Assembly: GCA_006503535.1 (NCBI GenBank)
Contig: QYRS01000008.1
Location: 2,852,001-2,916,000, forward strand
Source of the DNA: Arthrinium phaeospermum
Lineage: Eukaryota > Ascomycota > Sordariomycetes > Amphisphaeriales > Apiosporaceae
Direction: 5' to 3'
DNA: 64,000 nt
Under the pieces are notes generated by a model that saw nothing but the letters and a program-made list of their open reading frames with translations, was not told the origin of the DNA and did no database searches. Below are positions 22,020-61,956 of the stretch, in pieces. How positions within the stretch are numbered: the stretch's first letter is position 1; every line of letters begins with the position of its first letter. The translations under genes were made by a program, and so were the position numbers.

Positions 22020-23281
22020 TGTCCTTGGATGGCTTGTGGTTTGATGAAAGACTCGTGCTTATTGACTGTCATTAGGAAGATAGCCAACGATTGCCTTGAC
22101 CTAGAAATGAGCTGCTTTGTCACCTGCAACGCAAGCAGGCAAAAGGTTGGACACGAAAGACTAGCTCAAATGCAAAACGTTTTTTATTTTAGCTTACGCA
22201 ACGATCAAGAATTAGACGATTTTGGTCTGTCACATATATGACAGGGGGCTAACACACTCTAGCAGGGATGGCCGATCTAGTCCGCCGGCATTCATCAACT
22301 TCCGCAGGGATCATGCCTGGCGCTATCGATCTCCTCGTCCAACAGTATCTGGGCCATGCCTGCTAACCACGTTGCTCGGCCGTTAAGCCGTTAAGATTGC
22401 AATTCCAATTCCACGACCTTGCCTGATGTGCCTCGGCAACCTGAACTAGCGAAAGCATGATCTGGAATTATTAGGTAAGAGCATGATGGGGTGGGCTGGC
22501 CCAATCTCCACCCCCTCCCCTCCGGCTTCTCTTCTCTTTCTCTGCCCAATCCCGATCGATCGCTATTAAGAACGGCGAGCAATAAGATTAAGATATACTT
22601 ATATATTGGCTGGCATGACTCGCGCGTCAGGCGAGTGTCGTCGGCAGTCGGTCCGGTGCTTGGACGTCCATTCGGAAACCCCACCCCGTCGTCCCCCGAC
22701 CGCGCGATGGACGAATGCGGCGATCAGTTCGTCTCATAGCCCACCACCACACACAGGACCAGGGTGCAGCGTCGACGGCCACAGGAGGCCATCCAGGTCG
22801 GGTATCGTGCCGCCCCGTCTTTTCGGAACTTAAAACGGGATTTGGCTGGTTCAGGGTGACATCGCCCCGTCCCTCTCCGGACATTCGATGCGGGTAATTG
22901 TATATGCGGCAATCAGGAACCAGTCGATATTATGATCTTGTTTTCCTTGGTGTGGTGGTTTCGATTTGCCTACTTGTCCGAAGTCCGTTGCAGGGTCATC
23001 GTGGTAAAACATGACCAACACTAATTTCGGCATAAAAGTTGGGTACGTCGATGTAGTAAACAAGCGTTCGTAATGATTGATTTTCCGGTGGTGCTTGCAA
23101 ATTAATTGGTGATTGATCGTCTTCCGGTAAACCTAGCCTACCTCACCAACGACTCGTGCCCAACTCGCAAGAACGACGACGACGTACGATTGCGACGATT
23201 CAGCGACCTTTTACATGTCAGGCAAGCGTCTACGTGCCGAAGCCTAAGCGACGAAAGAAACCCCAACGGCAGCACCTAGTC
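22020..23281. other. Intergenic region with putative promoter of the RGS-LOV gene
   Basis: No gene is supported. The open frame of the next gene extends 5' of its first ATG (from 23156), so this region should contain its leader and promoter. I do not see an obvious conserved light-response element and cannot assign one. Confidence 0.45.
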
Positions 23282-25901
23282 ATGCCGTCCGATCTAGACT
23301 CCATGGATGGGTCGATCGACGACGTCCATGGACCGCGCCGGACCATGCACCCGTCGCAACCGCGGTACAAGCAGATGCCGAGACTCGACGATGAGATTGA
23401 CGACGACATCTTCTACAACCGGTCGCCCAAGCCCAGCGCCACCCAAGCCGCTGCGCAGACATTTCTAGCCATGGACGACATGTCCGAGATAGGATCGCCC
23501 AGACCATCGGGACGGGGACGGTCCTTCTCTATGGACAGCATGCGGCCCGACGAGCACCGACAGTTCGTGCCGGCCTACAAGAAGGGGCACCACCAGAGGG
23601 AGTCGTCCGACGTGATCCCGCAGTTCACCGAGGCCGCCCTGGCCGGCTTCACTATTGCGCCGAAACAACCTAGCACTTCACAGCAGCGAACCTCCCGGCG
23701 CAACAGCATAAGCGACAAGAAGAATGACACCAGCGGCTATGGTCGGAACAACCGAGATGACTACGAGGGAGCAGAGAGGCCGCTCCCCGCACTGCCCAAA
23801 AGACCGCGCGAAGACGAGATCGAGGCGGCCCGGAAGATCCTCGCGGCGGCCGAAGCCAGCAGCCGCCCGCGCCAGCCCAGCGAGAGAGCCCCCTCGCCGC
23901 CTGCGACCGTACGCTCGGCCACCCCGCCGCCCATCGGCCGACCCAGGCGCTACTTCACCGACGAGACTGAGACGGGCCCGCAGCAGACCAACAACAAGGA
24001 GCAACACGGCACGCCCGAAAAGATCCCGCCGCGGTCGTCGTCGAAGCGGCCGTCGTCTTCGGCGCGACGGAGCGTGGCGAGCATGTCCACCTTGCCGTCG
24101 CGGGTCGAGCCGGTTCTCGACCAGCACTACCAGCTGGACGGGGACGACGACTTCCGGCCGCCGCCGCAACAGGACTACAACAGCATGGGCCGCAAGCGCG
24201 GGGCCAGCCACAGCAACAGCAACGGCAACAACACCGTCACGGCCCGGGCCCGCTCCACGCGGGAGACGGACAGCCCCCGGGACGTGGACGAACTGACGAG
24301 CTACCCCCGCGGCCTCCTCCCTGTCGTATCCGCCAACGGGACGATCAAGGGCCCGGGCCGCCTGCGCCGGACCTACAGCGACGACGAGCTCTCGGTGGCG
24401 CGCGGCGGCGGGTACGCCCCCTCGTCCAAGCACAGCGTGGTGAGCGGGGGCTCGCGGCAGCACAGCAGCCGGATGCCCGAGTTCTTCAGCGAGGAGGCCT
24501 TCCAGACGGTGCTGCACAACCCCATCACGGCGCACGAGCTGCAGAAGTTCAGCGAGGCGCGCCTCTGCGGCGAGAGCGTCGCCTTCCTGGCCAAAGTGAA
24601 CGGCTACCAGGAGAGCCTGGGCGGCCTCTCGGGCCAGCTGGCGCACATCCACAAGTCGTTCATCTCGGACAGCTCCGCGACGCAGCTGCAGGGGGTCCCG
24701 CGCGAGCTGCTGCTGTCGGCGCACCGCGACATCAAGACGACGGTGGCGAGCACCTTCACGGGCATGGAGACGCTGTTTACCGACCTGCAGAGGCGGGTCG
24801 AGCAGAGCGTGTTTACGGACATTTACCCGCGGTTCGTGCGCGAGAAGGTCTCGTTGAGCGCCATTCAGGCTCTGGCCAACGACCGGCACAAGTACCAGGG
24901 TCTGGGCGACTGCTTCTGTCTTAGTGATCCCAAGTATGACTTCTCCTTTTGCTTTCATATTTCCTCTTGTGGTATATACATGCTAACAACCCCCCAGCAA
25001 AGCCGACAACCCCATCGTCTACGCCTCGGACGGCTTCGTCAAGGTGACGGGCTACAGCCGGCGCGAGGTGGTGCCGCGCAACTGCCGGTTCCTGCAGGGC
25101 CCGCAGACGGACCGCGAGACGGTGCGCAGCATGAAGATGGCCCTGGACGCGCGCAAGGACACGGTCGAGCTCATCCTCAACTACAAGAAGAACGGCGACC
25201 CCTTCTGGAACCTGCTGTACATGGCGCCCCTCTTCGACGAGACGGGCACCCTCGCCTTTTTTATCGGGGGGCAGGTCAACTGCTCCACCACCATCCACTC
25301 CAACACCGACGTCATGAAGGTCCTGGCCGGCGGGACCACTCCGGCCGCCAAAGAGACCGAGTTAGTCCCGCCGACGCGGCGGCAGATCCAGCGGCAGAGT
25401 TCCATGCCGTCGGCGCGCAAGGCTTTGCTGAAGGCGTTCGGGGTGCGCGTCGACGAGGCCCGGACGCTGGGCGAGTCCGGCATGGAGGACCAGGTGCTGG
25501 GCCGGATGGAGGGCCAGGACCTCAGCGACCAGATGAAGGAGTTCCGGACCGCCTACTCCAAGTACCTGGTCGTCCGGGCCGACACTTTTGTGATTCACTT
25601 CTACTCGGAAGGCGTCAGCGAGATGCTGCACCCGGGCAACACGGCGGGCCTGGTGACGGGCCAGGAGGTTTTCCGGTTCTTCAAGGCCAACATGGTCAGC
25701 AAGGAGACCGACTACCGCAGCCGCGTGCGGCTGGCGACGCGCAACGGCAACCCCATCAGCGTCGAGATCCGGCTGCAGACGCGGCGCAGCGCGCTCTACC
25801 GCGGGGACGAGCGGTTCGTCACGCACTGGACGCCGCTCAAGGACGAGAACTCGGCGACGGAGTGGGTGGTCATTACTTTGGCTCCCACCATGGGGCTGTA
25901 A
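23282..25901 (+). CDS. RGS-LOV photoreceptor (BcLOV4-type)
   Basis: Exons 23282-24933 and 24998-25901 (64-nt intron, gtatga donor, tgctaac branch, cccccag acceptor) give 851 aa. A long disordered N-terminus is followed by an RGS domain at about 407-540 (VLHNPITAHELQKFSEA, SVFTDIYPRFVREKVS). A LOV domain follows at about 552-660. It has NPIVYASDGFVKVTGY and the flavin motif RNCRFLQG with the photoactive Cys580. After LOV comes a basic amphipathic segment (RRQIQRQSSMPSARKALLK, about 677-695), as in the RGS-LOV proteins that bind anionic membrane lipids in light. A second PAS-like domain (about 727-850) ends the protein. Known relatives move to the plasma membrane on blue light; coupling to G-protein signalling through RGS is the family expectation. 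The start is the first ATG in frame. Confidence 0.92.
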
Positions 25902-26294
25902 GCTTCCAAATTGCGTAATACCCAGCGACTGGACTTTTCATGACGTCGTTTCTGGCGCTTTTCTATGTAATAGATAATGGCTCAAATACCAGGTGGACTT
26001 AGATAGTAATGAAATAGGACATCAAACCAACCGATTTCGGGACGAAGCCAATCAACTTGCTCACTGGGGCTTGATTAGGAAACTCTGGGTTGCTAGTCAA
26101 ACCCAATTTCTGGTACAGGACGACGTGGCGGTGGTGGCTTTGCAACTCTCTCGGATACCTCTCTGGCTTAAAGCCTACTAAATCTTCCGACCCCAGAAAC
26201 TATGTACTTGGAAGAATATTCCAAGGGCCACTTCACTCTTCGTCCTAACCGCCGGCCACTACCATTCCCACCAATCTCTCACTCTACAGACAAC

Positions 26295-34145: not shown

Positions 34146-35180
34146 TCAGAAACTGTCCCCATTATGCATCTCACCATCCGCTCTCATTTCGTTCCCCTCC
34201 CACCGGTACTTGTGGGCTACAGGGCGGACGCCGTTCTCGAACTGCACACCATTATGCATCCTTTCGACAAGAGCGGGGTCCGCAACCGCATCTGTTTCTG
34301 GTGTTTCTTTGATGTTACCCCGATACGTCGTATTTGCCGAGACGCGGAGCAGGTCCTCTTCCTGGATGGAGTTTCGCACTTTGGGGCCGTTGTGCATAGT
34401 CCCGCGCCCGGTCATGACGTTGTCCTCATAGGTGGCTGGGGTCGCGGCCCGAGCACCACCTGAAGTCAGCCACTGGGATTGATGCGGATGGCCCTGCCTT
34501 GGGGGTTGATGTCGGGAATCCCCGGGCTCCAAGTGGCGGTTGTCATCCCAAAGGACGACTTCTTTGCCTTGGTCTCCGACCTCGCGCGAGAACTGAAAGC
34601 ACACGAGGCTGTCACTCCCAGTCTCCGTTGAGTGAATATGTGCTGGGTCTTCGCAATGCTGGATTCGGCACGGGTCATGGCCAGAAGCATCGTGGTCGGC
34701 CAGTCTGACTCCGCCGTCTTCCTCCATCAGTTCCATCTCGCGCTCTGTGGTAAGATCCATTGCTGCTGTCTCTGCTCGTCGCTGGCGGTATTGGGGTCTA
34801 GTCTTGATCTCGTCCAGAGTAATTTTGGCAATGTACAAGGAAAGTGTGCTCTTCTTTTCTTCGATAGACTTGAAAGTGCGACTGTAGCGCTTCTCCCTGA
34901 TCACGAAGGCAATCGACGCGAAGAAGCGGTTATTTCGCTTGGGAATTGTGAAGGGTTCGAGCATGGCCGCGAGGGACCGGGTGCAGCTAGTTATTTCAGG
35001 CGTGTTCAAGCAAGGCTCCTGGTGGATCTGCCGAAGGAGGGGGTGCAGGTCGCGGACTCTTTCCTGGTAGTTTCGCGATGTCTCGGTGGCGTGGTAAAGC
35101 TGGTCGAAGAGCCCGCATAGCTTCAAACAGTACTCCGCTGCCTGTGCAGCACTCATCACGAGGGCCAACACTTCTGCCAT
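34146..35180 (-). CDS. SesA/HeLo-like N-terminal domain protein with three C-terminal MHNG motifs
   Basis: A single exon of 344 aa. The start MAEVLALVMSAAQAAEYCLK is the usual beginning of the fungal STAND/SesA N-terminal helical domain; an in-frame ATG six codons upstream (35198) is less typical. The helical domain spans about 1-130. A disordered region follows, with no NB-ARC, NACHT or repeat domain. The C-terminus carries three copies of a motif built as Y-x2/3-N ... MHNG: TYEDNVMTGRGTMHNGPKV (MHNG at 262-265), one with a longer insert (308-311), and KYRWEGNEMRADGEMHNG at the very end (338-341). A weaker fourth copy (WDDNRHLEPGDSRHQ) may precede them. The neighbouring divergent gene at 36087 carries the same motif. 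A homotypic oligomerisation or amyloid-type signalling role is inferred. Confidence 0.75.
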   Translation of the reverse strand: MAEVLALVMSAAQAAEYCLKLCGLFDQLYHATETSRNYQERVRDLHPLLRQIHQEPCLNTPEITSCTRSLAAMLEPFTIPKRNNRFFASIAFVIREKRYSRTFKSIEEKKSTLSLYIAKITLDEIKTRPQYRQRRAETAAMDLTTEREMELMEEDGGVRLADHDASGHDPCRIQHCEDPAHIHSTETGSDSLVCFQFSREVGDQGKEVVLWDDNRHLEPGDSRHQPPRQGHPHQSQWLTSGGARAATPATYEDNVMTGRGTMHNGPKVRNSIQEEDLLRVSANTTYRGNIKETPETDAVADPALVERMHNGVQFENGVRPVAHKYRWEGNEMRADGEMHNGDSF

Positions 35181-36086
35181 GGCAGCCGTGACATTCAATC
35201 AGACCTGATCGACGATGCGAACTGTTAGCACGGGACAGTGCATCGAAAACCGTCTCACGTAAGGTCATGTACTTAACAGTTCATGAACAAGGCTGGCCTG
35301 GGTGACAGCGTAGTCCTGAACAGCTTGATGCATTGGCGACCCAAAATCTTCATCGTCACTCTGCGACCGGGCAACAAAATGTGTTGGCACTTCAAAGGCC
35401 CATGCGGCTTACGCTCATTTTACAGCATGTTCATAGGACAGTTAGTTTGGAATGGGAGGCTGGCTGATGCAGTGTAACGTAATACATATGCGATGATAAG
35501 GCCACAGCCTGATTTTGCCCCGGGCACTTTTCGCCGTCAGGCTGTCTAGAAAGCCCAAACCAGAGTGATCCTTCTTGCTACCACCCACTAGCAAATGAAG
35601 AGGTTCTGTACGTGTCTACAAGAAACAAGGGGCTTGTTATGCACATGATAACATTGACAGACACAGCCGCAACATAGAGCCGTTGCCAACCATGGTAAAG
35701 GGTGCATGAATTACAAGGATCAGAGTTGGATGGCACGTGAATGATCTAGCAACCCCTAACCCATTTCTTATGCTACCTATGAGGATTATCTTAGTAAATC
35801 GAAAGCTGGAACATAAATATCAGGATCGCTTACTCATGTTGGCGATGGCGCAACCTGGTATGGAACAACGTGAGGGTAGCATTCGTTTGGGGATATTTAT
35901 TATTAGATTGTTGGCTTCGCCACCTTTACGCCAGCTTTCCCATTATAGCATAGCTTGCTTGTGATAGAGGTCATTTCCATGGAATATTTAAGGGAAGTTA
36001 CAGAAAATCGATACTGCCACACGGTATATCGCTGAGAGTCGTGGCCGCTACCTATGTTCCCCCTTCATACACCTAATTACTGAGTC
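35181..36086. other. Shared upstream region of the divergent MHNG/HNG pair
   Basis: About 900 bp between two head-to-head genes, so it should contain both promoters and could co-regulate them. No gene, repeat or recognisable operator is visible. Confidence 0.45.
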
Positions 36087-36817
36087 ATGTCGCAACAGTT
36101 ACCATCACGGCCGATATCACACAGGCCACTTTACGACGGCAATCATCACTTTGGTCACGGCACCCAACATAATGGCGCTAAGATAAGCAACACTCAAAGC
36201 GACGTACACATCTGGTTTGACAGGCACCGGGCACAGGTGCTGGCAACTATTGCTGTCGTTGCCATTGTAGCTATCGTGAGCCTGAGCTTGGGCCTGAGTC
36301 TGAGTCTTAAAGGCAACTCTAGCACATCGTGAGTCAATGTTATCAAACATGTAATTCGCGTTTACTATGCAGTAGGCTAACGAGCAACTCCTGGAAATCC
36401 ATGTCGGCCAACGAGCCCGCAGCTTCACCAGGTTCTGCCGGGCCTTCCAGCGTGGCCTCCTCCACGACGGCCAAGGGGGAGACCCAAACCACGGCTGCCA
36501 GCCCTTCGGTTACGCGACCAGTCGACCCCTTCTACTGCGACCTCGGCTGCGAAAAGGCCTTCATCGAGGAGCAGGGCTGCCACAGCAACTGCCCCGGCGC
36601 CGCCTGCAGAGACAGCAACGACTGCGAAGACCCGTACCCGTGCATAGCGCGACATTGGTCCGGGACGACCATGAGTGTTTCCGGGACCCCGGTGAGCTCA
36701 TGCTGGCTGGCCGGCTGCATGGAGTCGTGGACTTGCCAAGGGGCGTGCTCGCTGGACCTGAAGTGCGTCACGGCTACCAACTTCACCGCGTCTTCCACTT
36801 GCACCAGGATGGGGTGA
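36087..36817 (+). CDS. Single-pass membrane protein with cytosolic HNG motif and Cys-rich ectodomain
   Basis: Exons 36087-36328 and 36373-36817 (44-nt intron, gtgagt donor, atgcag acceptor) give 228 aa. The N-terminus holds the motif LYDGNHHFGHGTQHNGAKI (residues 15-33). It matches the first motif of the divergent neighbour at Y, N, G-x-G-T-x-H-N-G and K. A basic stretch (FDRHRAQ) and one transmembrane helix (about 51-74) follow. The basic flank predicts cytosolic N-terminus and outside C-terminus. A Ser/Thr linker leads to an ectodomain with 13 cysteines (YCDLGCEKAFIEEQGC, SNCPGAACRDSNDC, CWLAGCMESWTCQGAC). There is no signal peptide, so the helix is a signal anchor. The layout resembles a receptor; ligand and function are unknown. 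Confidence 0.75.
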
Positions 36818-58826: not shown

Positions 58827-60287
58827 TTAATTATGCAACCACTCCCTCCTTTCGGGGCCCGCAACCACCTCAAACTCGGCCATGACGCCGATGCGATCCG
58901 TGATCCAAGCCTTCTCGTACCCCAGCTCGCGCATACTCCTCGCCTCCTTGGCCTTGGCCGGCGGCAGCGTGAGGCCGGCCCCGAACGTGTGGAACCCCAG
59001 CAGCCGCAGCGCGCCGCTTGGGTTAAAGTAGCAGACCTTGTCCCGGCGCGCGCATCCCACCTCCCCCTCTACCAGAGCCAGACTCAGGCTCTTCTTCCGC
59101 CTCTCCCCCCATACCGGATCCTCCTCCCACTCTTCTTCTCCTCCGCCCTCCTGTGCCTTTGGCCGCCGCGGCGCCTGCGGGCCCCACGTGTAGCCCCCGG
59201 GCGCGTCTTCCTCCCCGCCGAGCGCGAGGTAGGCGTCCTCCAGCCCGTAGCGGGCATGCAGGCGGCGGTCGCGGTCCGCGACGGCGTGGAAGTCGCCCGC
59301 CGCGATGCCGGCGGCCACGGTGCCGTCCCTTAGCAGCCCGGCCACGCGGCGCATCTGCGACAGCCGCAGGGACGAGGCCCGGTCGAGCTGCGTGTTGCAC
59401 AGCCGTATGGGCTTGATGCGCCGCGGCGACGGTGCCTTCTGTCCCGGCTTTTGTCGTTGTTTCGGTGCTCCTCCCCCGGGGGGCATTATCACGATGTCGG
59501 CGCACAAGGCGGGGCGGTCGGTGTGGGCCGTCGCCCGGCCATGCCGGAACAGGTCGGCGAGCGGCAGCCGCCGGTCGATGAGCATGGCGGTCAGCTGCTT
59601 GGGCCGGGGCTTGCAGGCCAGGCTCTCCTGCACGTCGGTCAGGTAGAAGTACTTGCGCACCCACTCGCTCGCGGCAATGGTGTTCAGGTCCCCCCGCACC
59701 AGGTCCTGCAGGAAGATGACGGTGGCGACCGGGTCGTCCTTGATCTTGAAGCGCCCCGCCGCGCCCTCTTCCCCCGGCGAAGACTGCTCTTGCTGCTGCT
59801 GCCGCCGCCGCCGCTGGTGGGTCGTCAGCGTCTGGAGCGCGTCCAAGGCGGCTTGCATGCGGGGCCGTTCGTTGGGCAGCAGGTTGGTGAGATCCCAGCT
59901 GAGCAGCGCCAGTCTGGAGACGCTGCTACTGCTACTACTACTGCTGCTGCTGCTGCTGCTGGTCGCCGTCGCCCCGTCAGCGGGCGGTGCACCCCCCGTG
60001 GCAACCTCGGCCGTTGTTGCCCGTGGTTCCCATTGCCGCTTGTTGCGATTGAACTCGTAGTACTGCTGCCGGACCCGGTCTCCAGGCCCGAGCGCTTCCT
60101 GAGATGACAACGGCGCCCTTTTGCCTGCGCCTGTATGTTTCTCCTCCTCTTTGGCGGCTTTCCGGTATGCCCGATTGGGGATGCTGTTCCTGCTCTGGGG
60201 CGGCTGGGGGCGGCTCTTGTCGGGCTTCCAGGCGCGACTCAACACGCCGTGCACGTCCTTGGCCTTGCGAGCGCGAGAACTCATCAT
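58827..60287 (-). CDS. EEP-fold (endonuclease/exonuclease/phosphatase-like) protein, degenerate active site
   Basis: A single exon of 486 aa from ATG 60287. The N-terminus is basic and disordered with a poly-Ser tract. The EEP-like fold follows: RLALLSWDLTNLLPN, VATVIFLQDLVRGDL, MLIDRRLPLADLF, RLCNTQLDRAS, QMRRVAGLL, IAAGDFHAV, GGYTWGPQ and AWITDRIGVMAEFEV. Catalytic positions of this superfamily are altered: the first-strand Asn is Asp (SWD), the Glu is Asp (LQD), GDxN is GDFH, and the terminal SDH is TDR, so the key histidine is missing. It is probably not a normal nuclease. A divergent paralogue starts 385 bp away at 60672. Confidence 0.75.
   Translation of the reverse strand: MMSSRARKAKDVHGVLSRAWKPDKSRPQPPQSRNSIPNRAYRKAAKEEEKHTGAGKRAPLSSQEALGPGDRVRQQYYEFNRNKRQWEPRATTAEVATGGAPPADGATATSSSSSSSSSSSSSVSRLALLSWDLTNLLPNERPRMQAALDALQTLTTHQRRRRQQQQEQSSPGEEGAAGRFKIKDDPVATVIFLQDLVRGDLNTIAASEWVRKYFYLTDVQESLACKPRPKQLTAMLIDRRLPLADLFRHGRATAHTDRPALCADIVIMPPGGGAPKQRQKPGQKAPSPRRIKPIRLCNTQLDRASSLRLSQMRRVAGLLRDGTVAAGIAAGDFHAVADRDRRLHARYGLEDAYLALGGEEDAPGGYTWGPQAPRRPKAQEGGGEEEWEEDPVWGERRKKSLSLALVEGEVGCARRDKVCYFNPSGALRLLGFHTFGAGLTLPPAKAKEARSMRELGYEKAWITDRIGVMAEFEVVAGPERREWLHN
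59922..59962. repeat. CTG/CTA trinucleotide repeat encoding poly-Ser
   Basis: A run of about 13 CTG/CTA triplets on the plus strand. Read on the minus strand inside the EEP-like gene it encodes a run of serines (AGC/AGT). Confidence 0.85.
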
Positions 60288-60671
60288 GTCGAAAAACAAA
60301 AGCGGGGCCACCCTTTTCTCGATGAATGAAGTGAGTGATGTTTTGCCCAGGGCCCAACTCCTCCCGTATGTGCTGCTGGTCGTTGGTTATTTGGTAGGAT
60401 TCGAGGGGGAAACACATTTGGCGCAAATAACGTACCCTGGCATCGGTAGATCGTTATTCCCGTCTTGGCCATAAGTGCATTACTTATCGGTACGTTGTAT
60501 GCAAGGCACATTTGCAACGACGCAACCTCCCTCGAGCGCACATAACCTACCTCTCAATCGTCTTGTCGTTTCACCGTCTTTAGCCCCCCCCGCCGGCGCA
60601 GTCGCAGTCGGGTGATATAATTGATTGAATCAGCGTACTAGCGAAATGAAGGTCCATGCTCTTCCGAAACA
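60288..60671. other. Shared promoter region of the EEP-like pair
   Basis: About 385 bp between two head-to-head paralogous genes. No other gene fits. It could drive both in a coordinated way. Confidence 0.5.
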
Positions 60672-61956
60672 ATGCCCTCTTCTTGTAGTCGCATGGGAGG
60701 TGCCGCACGCGGCGCTGCCAAACACGCCGCCCGAGCATACCAGAAAGAACTCAAGAAACTCGGGCTGGCCCCCCACGACGGAGGAGCGCCATGGGCATTA
60801 TCTGAAAAAATGACTTGGAAGGAAGACCAGGCGCTGGTCCAACGCCAACCCGGAGACCCGATCCGCCAAAACTACTACAGCTACAATTCCCGCAAGCCCG
60901 AGTGGGAACCGCGGACGGCAGGGACGCAAAAGGCCCATCATGTAGGAGGCGGGCAGCTCTGCAAGCTGGCTCTGTTCAGCTGGAACCTCGACTTCATGAT
61001 CCCCGTCCCCCGCGTGCGCAAGACGCGCATGACGGCCGCCCTGCGCGCGCTCGAGACGGCGACGGGCATCGACCGGGCGCGGCCGCTGTCGGGCACCACG
61101 GCCACCGTCGTCCTGCTGCAGGGCTGCCTGCACGAGGACCTGAAAGTCATGGCCGAGCGGCCGTGGGTGCGCGACCACTTCTTCCTGACGGACCTGCGGC
61201 CCGTGAAGCCGGCCCTCACCACCACCATGCTCATCGACCGCCGGCTGCCGCCCGCGCGGCTGTTTCGGGCGCACTACCCCGAGACGGGCATGGCGCGCGA
61301 CGCGTTCTGCGTGGACCTCTCGATGGCCACCGCGTCGGGACCACCAGGAGGGGGGGGGGCCCCGCCGGACGATCCGGCTGTGCACCACGCACCTCGACGG
61401 CGGCGTGACCCGGGCCGCCGACCCGACGGAGACGAGGGCGACCAAGACGCCGCCGACGGTGCGACCGGCGCAGATGCGCCGCGTGGCCGGGTTGCTGAAA
61501 GACGACAGTAGCGTGGCGGCGGGCATCGCGGCGGGCGACTTCCACGCGGTCCGGGACTACGACCGGGCGCTGCCCGCGGACCTGGGGCTCCGGGACGCGT
61601 ACCTCGAGCTCGGGGGTCGCGAGGACCGCGAGGAGGGGTACACGTGGGGTCAGCAGGCCGCGACGGCGGCGCGGGAGGGGCTGGGCGTGGAGCGCGCGCG
61701 CCTGGACAAGGTGTTGTACGTTGCTGGCGGCGGCGACAACAACAACAACAACAACAACCACGACCCTAACGATTCGGATGTCCTCCGGCTGTTGCGGTTC
61801 CAGCGGTTCGGGGCCGGGGTCGAGATGCGGCCGGGCGCGGCCAAGAGGCAGTCGGAGCCGGTGCTGGCCGAGATGGGCTGCGAGAGGGCTTGGATTACGG
61901 ATCACCTCGGCGTCATGGCCGAGTTTGAGGTGCGGCCGGTTAGTAAGACGTGGTGA
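60672..61956 (+). CDS. EEP-fold paralogue with frameshift at a G10 run
   Basis: The first part (from 60672) reads LALFSWNLDFMIP, TATVVLLQGCLHEDL and MLIDRRLPPARLF, matching the divergent neighbour segment by segment. At the run of ten G (61350-61359) the matching frame changes. The second part reads TIRLCTTHLDGG, QMRRVAGLL, IAAGDFHAV, GYTWGQQ and AWITDHLGVMAEFEV, and ends at 61956. One G fewer in the run would join the two into about 427 aa. In this copy the first-strand Asn and the terminal His are kept, but the catalytic Glu is replaced by Gly (LQG). In the first frame alone the protein would stop at 61511. The gene is therefore frameshifted or mis-assembled. Confidence 0.7.
61350..61359. 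repeat. G10 homopolymer at frame change
   Basis: Ten consecutive G followed by four C, exactly where the coding frame of the EEP paralogue changes by one base. Confidence 0.9.
61738..61758. repeat. AAC trinucleotide repeat (poly-Asn)
   Basis: Seven AAC triplets within the EEP paralogue, encoding seven Asn in a loop just after VLYVAGGGD. Confidence 0.9.

Follow-up and report, generated by a model that had tools for sequence, protein, structure and literature searches.

In P. anserina, het-S and nwd2 are divergent genes, the sensor carrying a lone N-terminal motif and the effector carrying motif repeats C-terminal to a helical domain, as described in the available excerpts of four papers (PMC3321046, PMC5485727, PMC10197012, and PMC12881547). 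The sigma motif of SesA, SesB, and HET-eN is presented in the accessible part of PMC3321046 with the submotifs GxGxQFNxx and GGTQNINT, three of them following one another. In Drosophila, clustered PGRP-LC receptors nucleate Imd amyloid through cRHIMs, according to the retrieved passages of PMC9496462 and PMC7885112. In the available portions of the fungal amyloid-signaling papers, the role of sensor falls to an intracellular NLR, and the word "transmembrane" refers, in the excerpts of the fungal and fly amyloid-signaling literature, to HeLo, MLKL, or Bell helices or to fly receptors. Among the matches listed from the open-licence literature, which leaves out preprints and most subscription papers, no title concerned a fungal membrane partner or receptor of the type described below.

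The locus considered here lies in the window, namely, the whole stretch of 64,000 nucleotides that was analyzed (C8:2852001-2916000), within the single assembly searched in this work (48.4 Mb, 19 contigs), whose introns and NLR content point to a fungus. A sequence-only reading had proposed a divergent gene pair sharing a motif at 34146-35180 (minus strand) and 36087-36817 (plus strand), and this observation was confirmed: both genes are true open reading frames at those positions, separated by a divergent intergenic region of 906 bp (35181-36086). The minus-strand gene, designated effector gene A, encodes in a single exon a protein of 344 amino acids in which an N-terminal helical domain is followed by a linker and by C-terminal motif repeats. 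Residues 1 to 140 (34761-35180, minus strand) were predicted from AF2 and hydropathy to form a helix bundle with a long first helix. The three repeats claimed for this gene were found, all on the minus strand, at 34386-34430 (copy 1, YEDNVMTGRGTMHNG), 34248-34325 (copy 2, with an 11-residue insertion and ending in ERMHNG), and 34158-34202 (copy 3, WEGNEMRADGEMHNG), and M-H-N-G closes every one of them. The plus-strand gene, designated membrane-protein gene A, encodes 228 amino acids in two exons (36087-36328 and 36373-36817) around a GT..AG intron (36329-36372) placed by eye, without cDNA. Its product carries one motif copy (YDGNHHFGHGTQHNG, 36132-36176) in a tail that is probably cytosolic, a single transmembrane (TM) helix recognized by hydropathy (36237-36293), and, past an S/T-rich stalk, a Cys-rich domain of the form CPGAxC....DC..P.PC (36506-36814). 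The TM helix is the only hydrophobic segment (residues 51 to 69, Kyte-Doolittle value of 2.65, with no other segment above 1.6), and all 13 Cys residues are C-terminal to it; the single matching motif, the single TM helix, and the 13-Cys domain claimed for this gene were all seen.

Elsewhere in the window, the divergent neighboring frames 58827-60386 (minus strand) and 60642-61511 (plus strand) encode similar proteins ('LNTIAASEWVRKYFYLTD' and 'LKVMAERPWVRDHFFLTD', with MLIDRRLP in both) and form a second head-to-head pair, made of duplicated genes. Frame 24987-25901 (plus strand), inside 23117-25918, resembles, by eye only, a LOV/PAS-type photoreceptor core (ASDGFVKVTGYSRREVVPRNCRFLQG).

Within pair A, the tail motif and effector A, with its copies 1 and 3 and the copy with the insertion, aligned without gaps. 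The similarity between tail A and effector A reached z scores of 4.9 to 8.0, with none of 400 shuffles scoring as high at each of four word lengths, and further shuffle tests gave 0 of 500 and, for gapped alignment, 1 of 2,000. A DNA pattern for GxGxxHNG occurred 33 times in the whole genome, compared with 35 times for the reversed control, and thus the bare pattern is not enriched. Among the 30 of these 33 sites that were read in context, the setting Phi-x-x-N..[QM]-x-N-G was present only at the two places in pair A.

Chained searches of the same genome revealed that the membrane protein has three paralogues (two on C9, one on C2), and the resulting pairs were named A (C8), B (C9:2462.8k), C (C9:859k), and D (C2:4151.6k). 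Membrane protein A as the query retrieved B (E = 5e-6), B retrieved C (E = 6e-5), and C retrieved D (E = 2e-6), while the second exon of membrane gene D retrieved itself and C9:859k only. The ectodomain family count of four refers to matches at E < 1e-4; the weak matches L067-L069 (E values of 0.8 to 5.6) were left out of this count, as was L043 (E = 0.06), whose sequence on reading resembles another gene. In all four membrane proteins, an N-terminal tail leads into the one TM helix, which is followed by an S/T-rich stalk and then by a Cys-rich domain with CPGAxC....DC..P.PC, and their ectodomains were significantly similar in six of six pairwise comparisons (0 or 1 of 1,000 shuffles). An intron, located by eye, follows the TM helix after 12 (A), 19 (B), 3 (C), and 7 (D) residues; genes A and B share phase 2, and genes C and D share phase 0.

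Directly upstream of each of the four membrane genes, on the other strand, lies a head-to-head gene for a helical-looking protein of 276 to 344 amino acids, at intergenic distances of 906 bp (A), 779 bp (B), 794 bp (C), and 726 bp (D). Effector gene B spans C9:2460719-2461546, and the start codons of effectors C and D are at C9:858298 and C2:4150461, respectively. Just downstream of effector B is a stretch of 5 to 10% G+C (L036 7500-8600; C9:2459500-2460600), an AT-rich sequence of the type left by repeat-induced point mutation, which may mark a move or duplication of that pair. The effector N-terminal domains were related in the A-B (z = 7.3), A-C (z = 6.3), and C-D comparisons (0 of 1,000 shuffles each), with weak kinship between B and C (18 of 1,000) and no significant kinship between A and D (z = 1.1, 145 of 1,000) or between B and D (703 of 1,000). 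Genome searches with effector A (E ≤ 0.001) and with effectors B and C (E ≤ 10) as queries retrieved only the queries themselves. Head-to-head order was thus kept in all four homologous loci, which are paralogues within one genome. Considering this paralogy, the linkage in four of four cases represents one ancestral linkage kept through duplication and dispersal rather than four independent events. The effector domains of B to D share 17 to 20% identity with that of A, and the linkage kept despite this divergence provides the chief support for regarding the two genes as a functional unit. A functional gene pair is considered very probable.

Two motif patterns, both composed after sight of the sequences, were compared with a background set of stop-to-stop frames no shorter than 60 residues, some overlapping (209,593 residues in total), from which 23 loci had been removed beforehand, along with 2.8 kb of the window. 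Under these post hoc patterns, pairs A, B, and D each have a motif of one shape, with a single copy on the tail side against two or three on the effector side. Phi-x-x-N-x(5-7)-[QM]-x-N-[GN] matched one place in tail A, two in effector A, one in tail B, and two in effector B (one in two registers), with no match in C and D and 1 match in the 209,593 background residues. Phi-x-[GD]-N-x7-[MVLIQ]-x-[IMN]-G matched one place in tail D, two in effector D, one in tail A, and two in effector A, with no match in B and C and none in the same background. A double motif match within one effector tail arose in at most 1 of 20,000 shuffles, and tail residues G18, N19, and H24 are invariant in the alignment of the four membrane proteins, in which B was aligned via its second GN. 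In pair C (L042/L063, C9:857-860k), neither the patterns nor word comparison recognized a shared motif. Conservation of the motif among homologues, here paralogues in one genome, was therefore observed in three of four pairs (A, B, and D) and did not extend to C. Pair C retains the gene layout and a DGN..H tail core, and it may rely on some other motif or no longer signal.

The motif did not co-vary equally well in all pairs. Hand-chosen 21-residue tail words from A, B (first word), C, and D had their top z scores with their own effectors (8.0, 4.0, 1.3, and 1.8, respectively), and a second tail B word did not. With all words included, the true pairing ranked 1, 2, 1, and 2 of 24 at word lengths of 12, 15, 18, and 21, and it ranked 1, 2, 1, and 2 of 6 at the same lengths when pair A was left out. 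Gapped similarity to the own effector was limited to z scores of 1.5 for tail B and 0.8 for tail D, and the comparison of all windows gave 0.7 to 1.8 and -0.2 to 1.1, respectively. At word lengths of 15 to 21, tail D matched effector A (z = 2.8 to 3.7) better than its own effector (0.4 to 1.1), and tail B matched effector D (1.7 to 2.7) better than its own (0.7 to 1.8); at most word lengths, another pair's effector matched these two tails equally well or better. Co-variation within pairs was clear for pair A, and tails B and D did not single out their own effectors, so that a general co-variation, with the true pairing first or second of 24 and driven by A, is only suggested. Because of these cross-matches, a motif family common to the pairs is better supported than one private motif per pair. 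The closeness of tail D (L066) to the motif of effector A, with z scores of up to 3.7, raises the possibility that pairs cross-talk.

The "SesA/HeLo-like" label that the sequence-only reading had given to the N terminus of effector A found no backing in Pfam, in which no family matched effectors A, B, and D at E ≤ 10. None of the eight pair proteins had a Pfam match over the cutoff, the best being that of effector C to PF17111 (E = 3.9e-5), whose 23.6 bits fall under the cutoff of 27.2. Comparison by hhalign of the helical domain with two- and three-row SesA and PigL_N sets from the same genome gave probabilities of 0.2% and 1.2%, and a PDB sequence search with effector A returned nothing at E ≤ 10. 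AF2 with a four-row alignment modeled the effector A domain as a helix bundle (mean pLDDT of 66) with helices at residues 2-30, 35-54, 61-77, 85-126, and 129-139. Generic helix bundles ranked top when this model was searched with Foldseek and VIA-align, and HeLo or MLKL was not among the best 50 matches shown, a result that was not counted as evidence against such a fold. An N-terminal hydrophobic segment in effectors A, B, and D (19-residue hydropathy of 1.39, 1.85, and 1.22, respectively) is compatible with a membrane-acting domain, without proving one. For the membrane protein, the ectodomain model was useless (pLDDT of 36), and thus no ligand class was assigned. The charge flanking the TM helix favors an N-in orientation in B and D and does not favor it in A and C.

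At least 62 NACHT and at least 12 NB-ARC matches were detected genome-wide at E ≤ 0.01, and no such match, among those listed, occurs within 180 kb of any pair. The nearest of the listed matches are 181 kb (C), 217 kb (A), 579 kb (D), and 929 kb (B) away. Next to the effector, the membrane protein is thus the sole sensor candidate detected, and, in line with the contrast that had been drawn with NLR-based pairs, this neighbor is a TM, Cys-rich protein. The genome also encodes two SesA proteins with GxGx[MQ]xN tails, L044 (1465-2121; PF17107, E = 1e-38) and L045 (PF17107, E = 3e-31), which are useful control genes. A NACHT match begins 0.4 kb past the stop codon of L044, an arrangement equal to that of the sigma locus as given in the accessible part of PMC3321046. 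L045 is followed by a frame that looks by eye like NB-ARC and is absent from the listed NB-ARC matches.

From these sequence features, we propose that the pair may be a two-gene unit in which a surface receptor templates a cytosolic, probably membrane-acting effector, a full mechanism for which we consider the chances evenly balanced. The membrane protein would span the plasma membrane, its N-terminal tail facing the cytosol and its Cys-rich domain standing outside on the S/T-rich stalk, and the binding of a putative ligand, or clustering, outside the cell would gather the single-copy tail motifs. The gathered motifs would then nucleate an ordered amyloid-like fold, converting the repeats in the soluble partner's tail. 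This conversion would release the N-terminal helical domain of the effector, which would act at the membrane and most likely kill or wall off the cell. That the shared motif is of amyloid type is reasonably probable. The wider proposal of a fungal family of NLR-free amyloid units, in which a Cys-rich surface receptor would directly template a cytosolic cell-death effector, perhaps with its own motif variant in each pair, is tentative and falls a little short of an even chance. As a whole, the interpretation offered by the sequence-only reading is partly supported.

The tail motif is short and present in a single copy, and tails other than that of pair A resemble their own effectors only weakly, which would suit an ordinary linear docking module, rather than an amyloid, through which the membrane protein tethers the helical protein at the membrane or keeps it inactive as long as nothing engages the surface domain. 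However, effector repeats facing a single partner copy, together with the sigma-type GxGxQxN cores of pairs A and B, make up the amyloid-pair arrangement published in the available part of PMC3321046, and we regard simple docking as rather unlikely. The tight divergent linkage kept on C2, C8, and C9 would also be expected of killer/antidote or incompatibility genes, in which case a putative toxic helical protein would be neutralized by the linked membrane protein or alleles would be incompatible between strains. Sensor-effector pairs predict the identical linkage, though, and such a poison-antidote or allorecognition role seems improbable.

The two genes might instead have no functional link, one ancestral neighbor pair having been duplicated several times and the motif likeness reflecting shared descent or chance. 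This explanation accords with the paralogy of all four loci, whose adjacency does not count as four independent events, with the motif not being found in C, and with the failure of tails B and D to single out their own effectors. It is nevertheless very unlikely, given that linkage, spacing, and, in three pairs, the motif persist at 17 to 20% identity of effector domains B to D to that of A.

The proposed unit of a surface receptor templating its effector is similar to HET-S/NWD2, as far as the excerpts of that literature describe it, in its adjacent divergent genes, single sensor-tail motif, and repeats behind the effector helical domain (pairs A, B, and D, under post hoc patterns), and the copy ratio between tail and effector in these pairs approximates that of R0 to R1/R2 in NWD2/HET-S. 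It differs in its sensor, a single-pass membrane protein bearing a Cys-rich domain rather than a NACHT/NB-ARC protein, and in its effector domain, a predicted helix bundle that is at most a candidate member of HeLo/SesA. The motif of pair D was weighed as a HET-s type: at hydrophobic positions 3, 14, and 16 and at G17, the tail copy and the two in the effector agree with the HET-s consensus, but N at position 6 departs from the published consensus, and the motif is therefore called only HET-s-like.

Sigma submotif A with F relaxed (GxGxQxN) was present in tail A, effector B, and the SesA protein L045, with 1 occurrence in the 209,593 background residues, and one of the three effector A copies and the SesA protein L044 have M in place of Q (GxGx[QM]xN, 2 background occurrences). 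The strict form GxGxQFN was found in none of the eight pair proteins. Pairs A and B thus resemble the sigma motif in their GxGx[QM]xN cores, which the genome's own SesA proteins L044 and L045 also carry, but H or V stands in place of F, the effector A copies are spread over ∼90 residues, and the neighbor is not an NLR.

PGRP-LC has a type II topology. With the NLR replaced by a membrane receptor, the proposed unit resembles PGRP-LC/Imd, as portrayed in the retrieved passages on the fly, in that a surface receptor would nucleate a cytosolic partner through an intracellular amyloid motif. Unlike that system, the pair proteins have no PP/RHIM-type core (G-[LIV]-Q-[LIV]-(x)-G in 0 of 8 pair proteins and 5 times in the 209,593 background residues), and the partner is a helical protein rather than a death-domain adaptor. 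The four pairs in one genome provide a chance to test insulation versus cross-talk between motifs, and, if the proposal is true, the question of which extracellular cues fungal death effectors respond to becomes directly testable. Should the membrane receptor use the same logic as the intracellular sensors, it would define a surface-triggered fungal death or defense pathway, parallel to PGRP-LC/Imd in insects.
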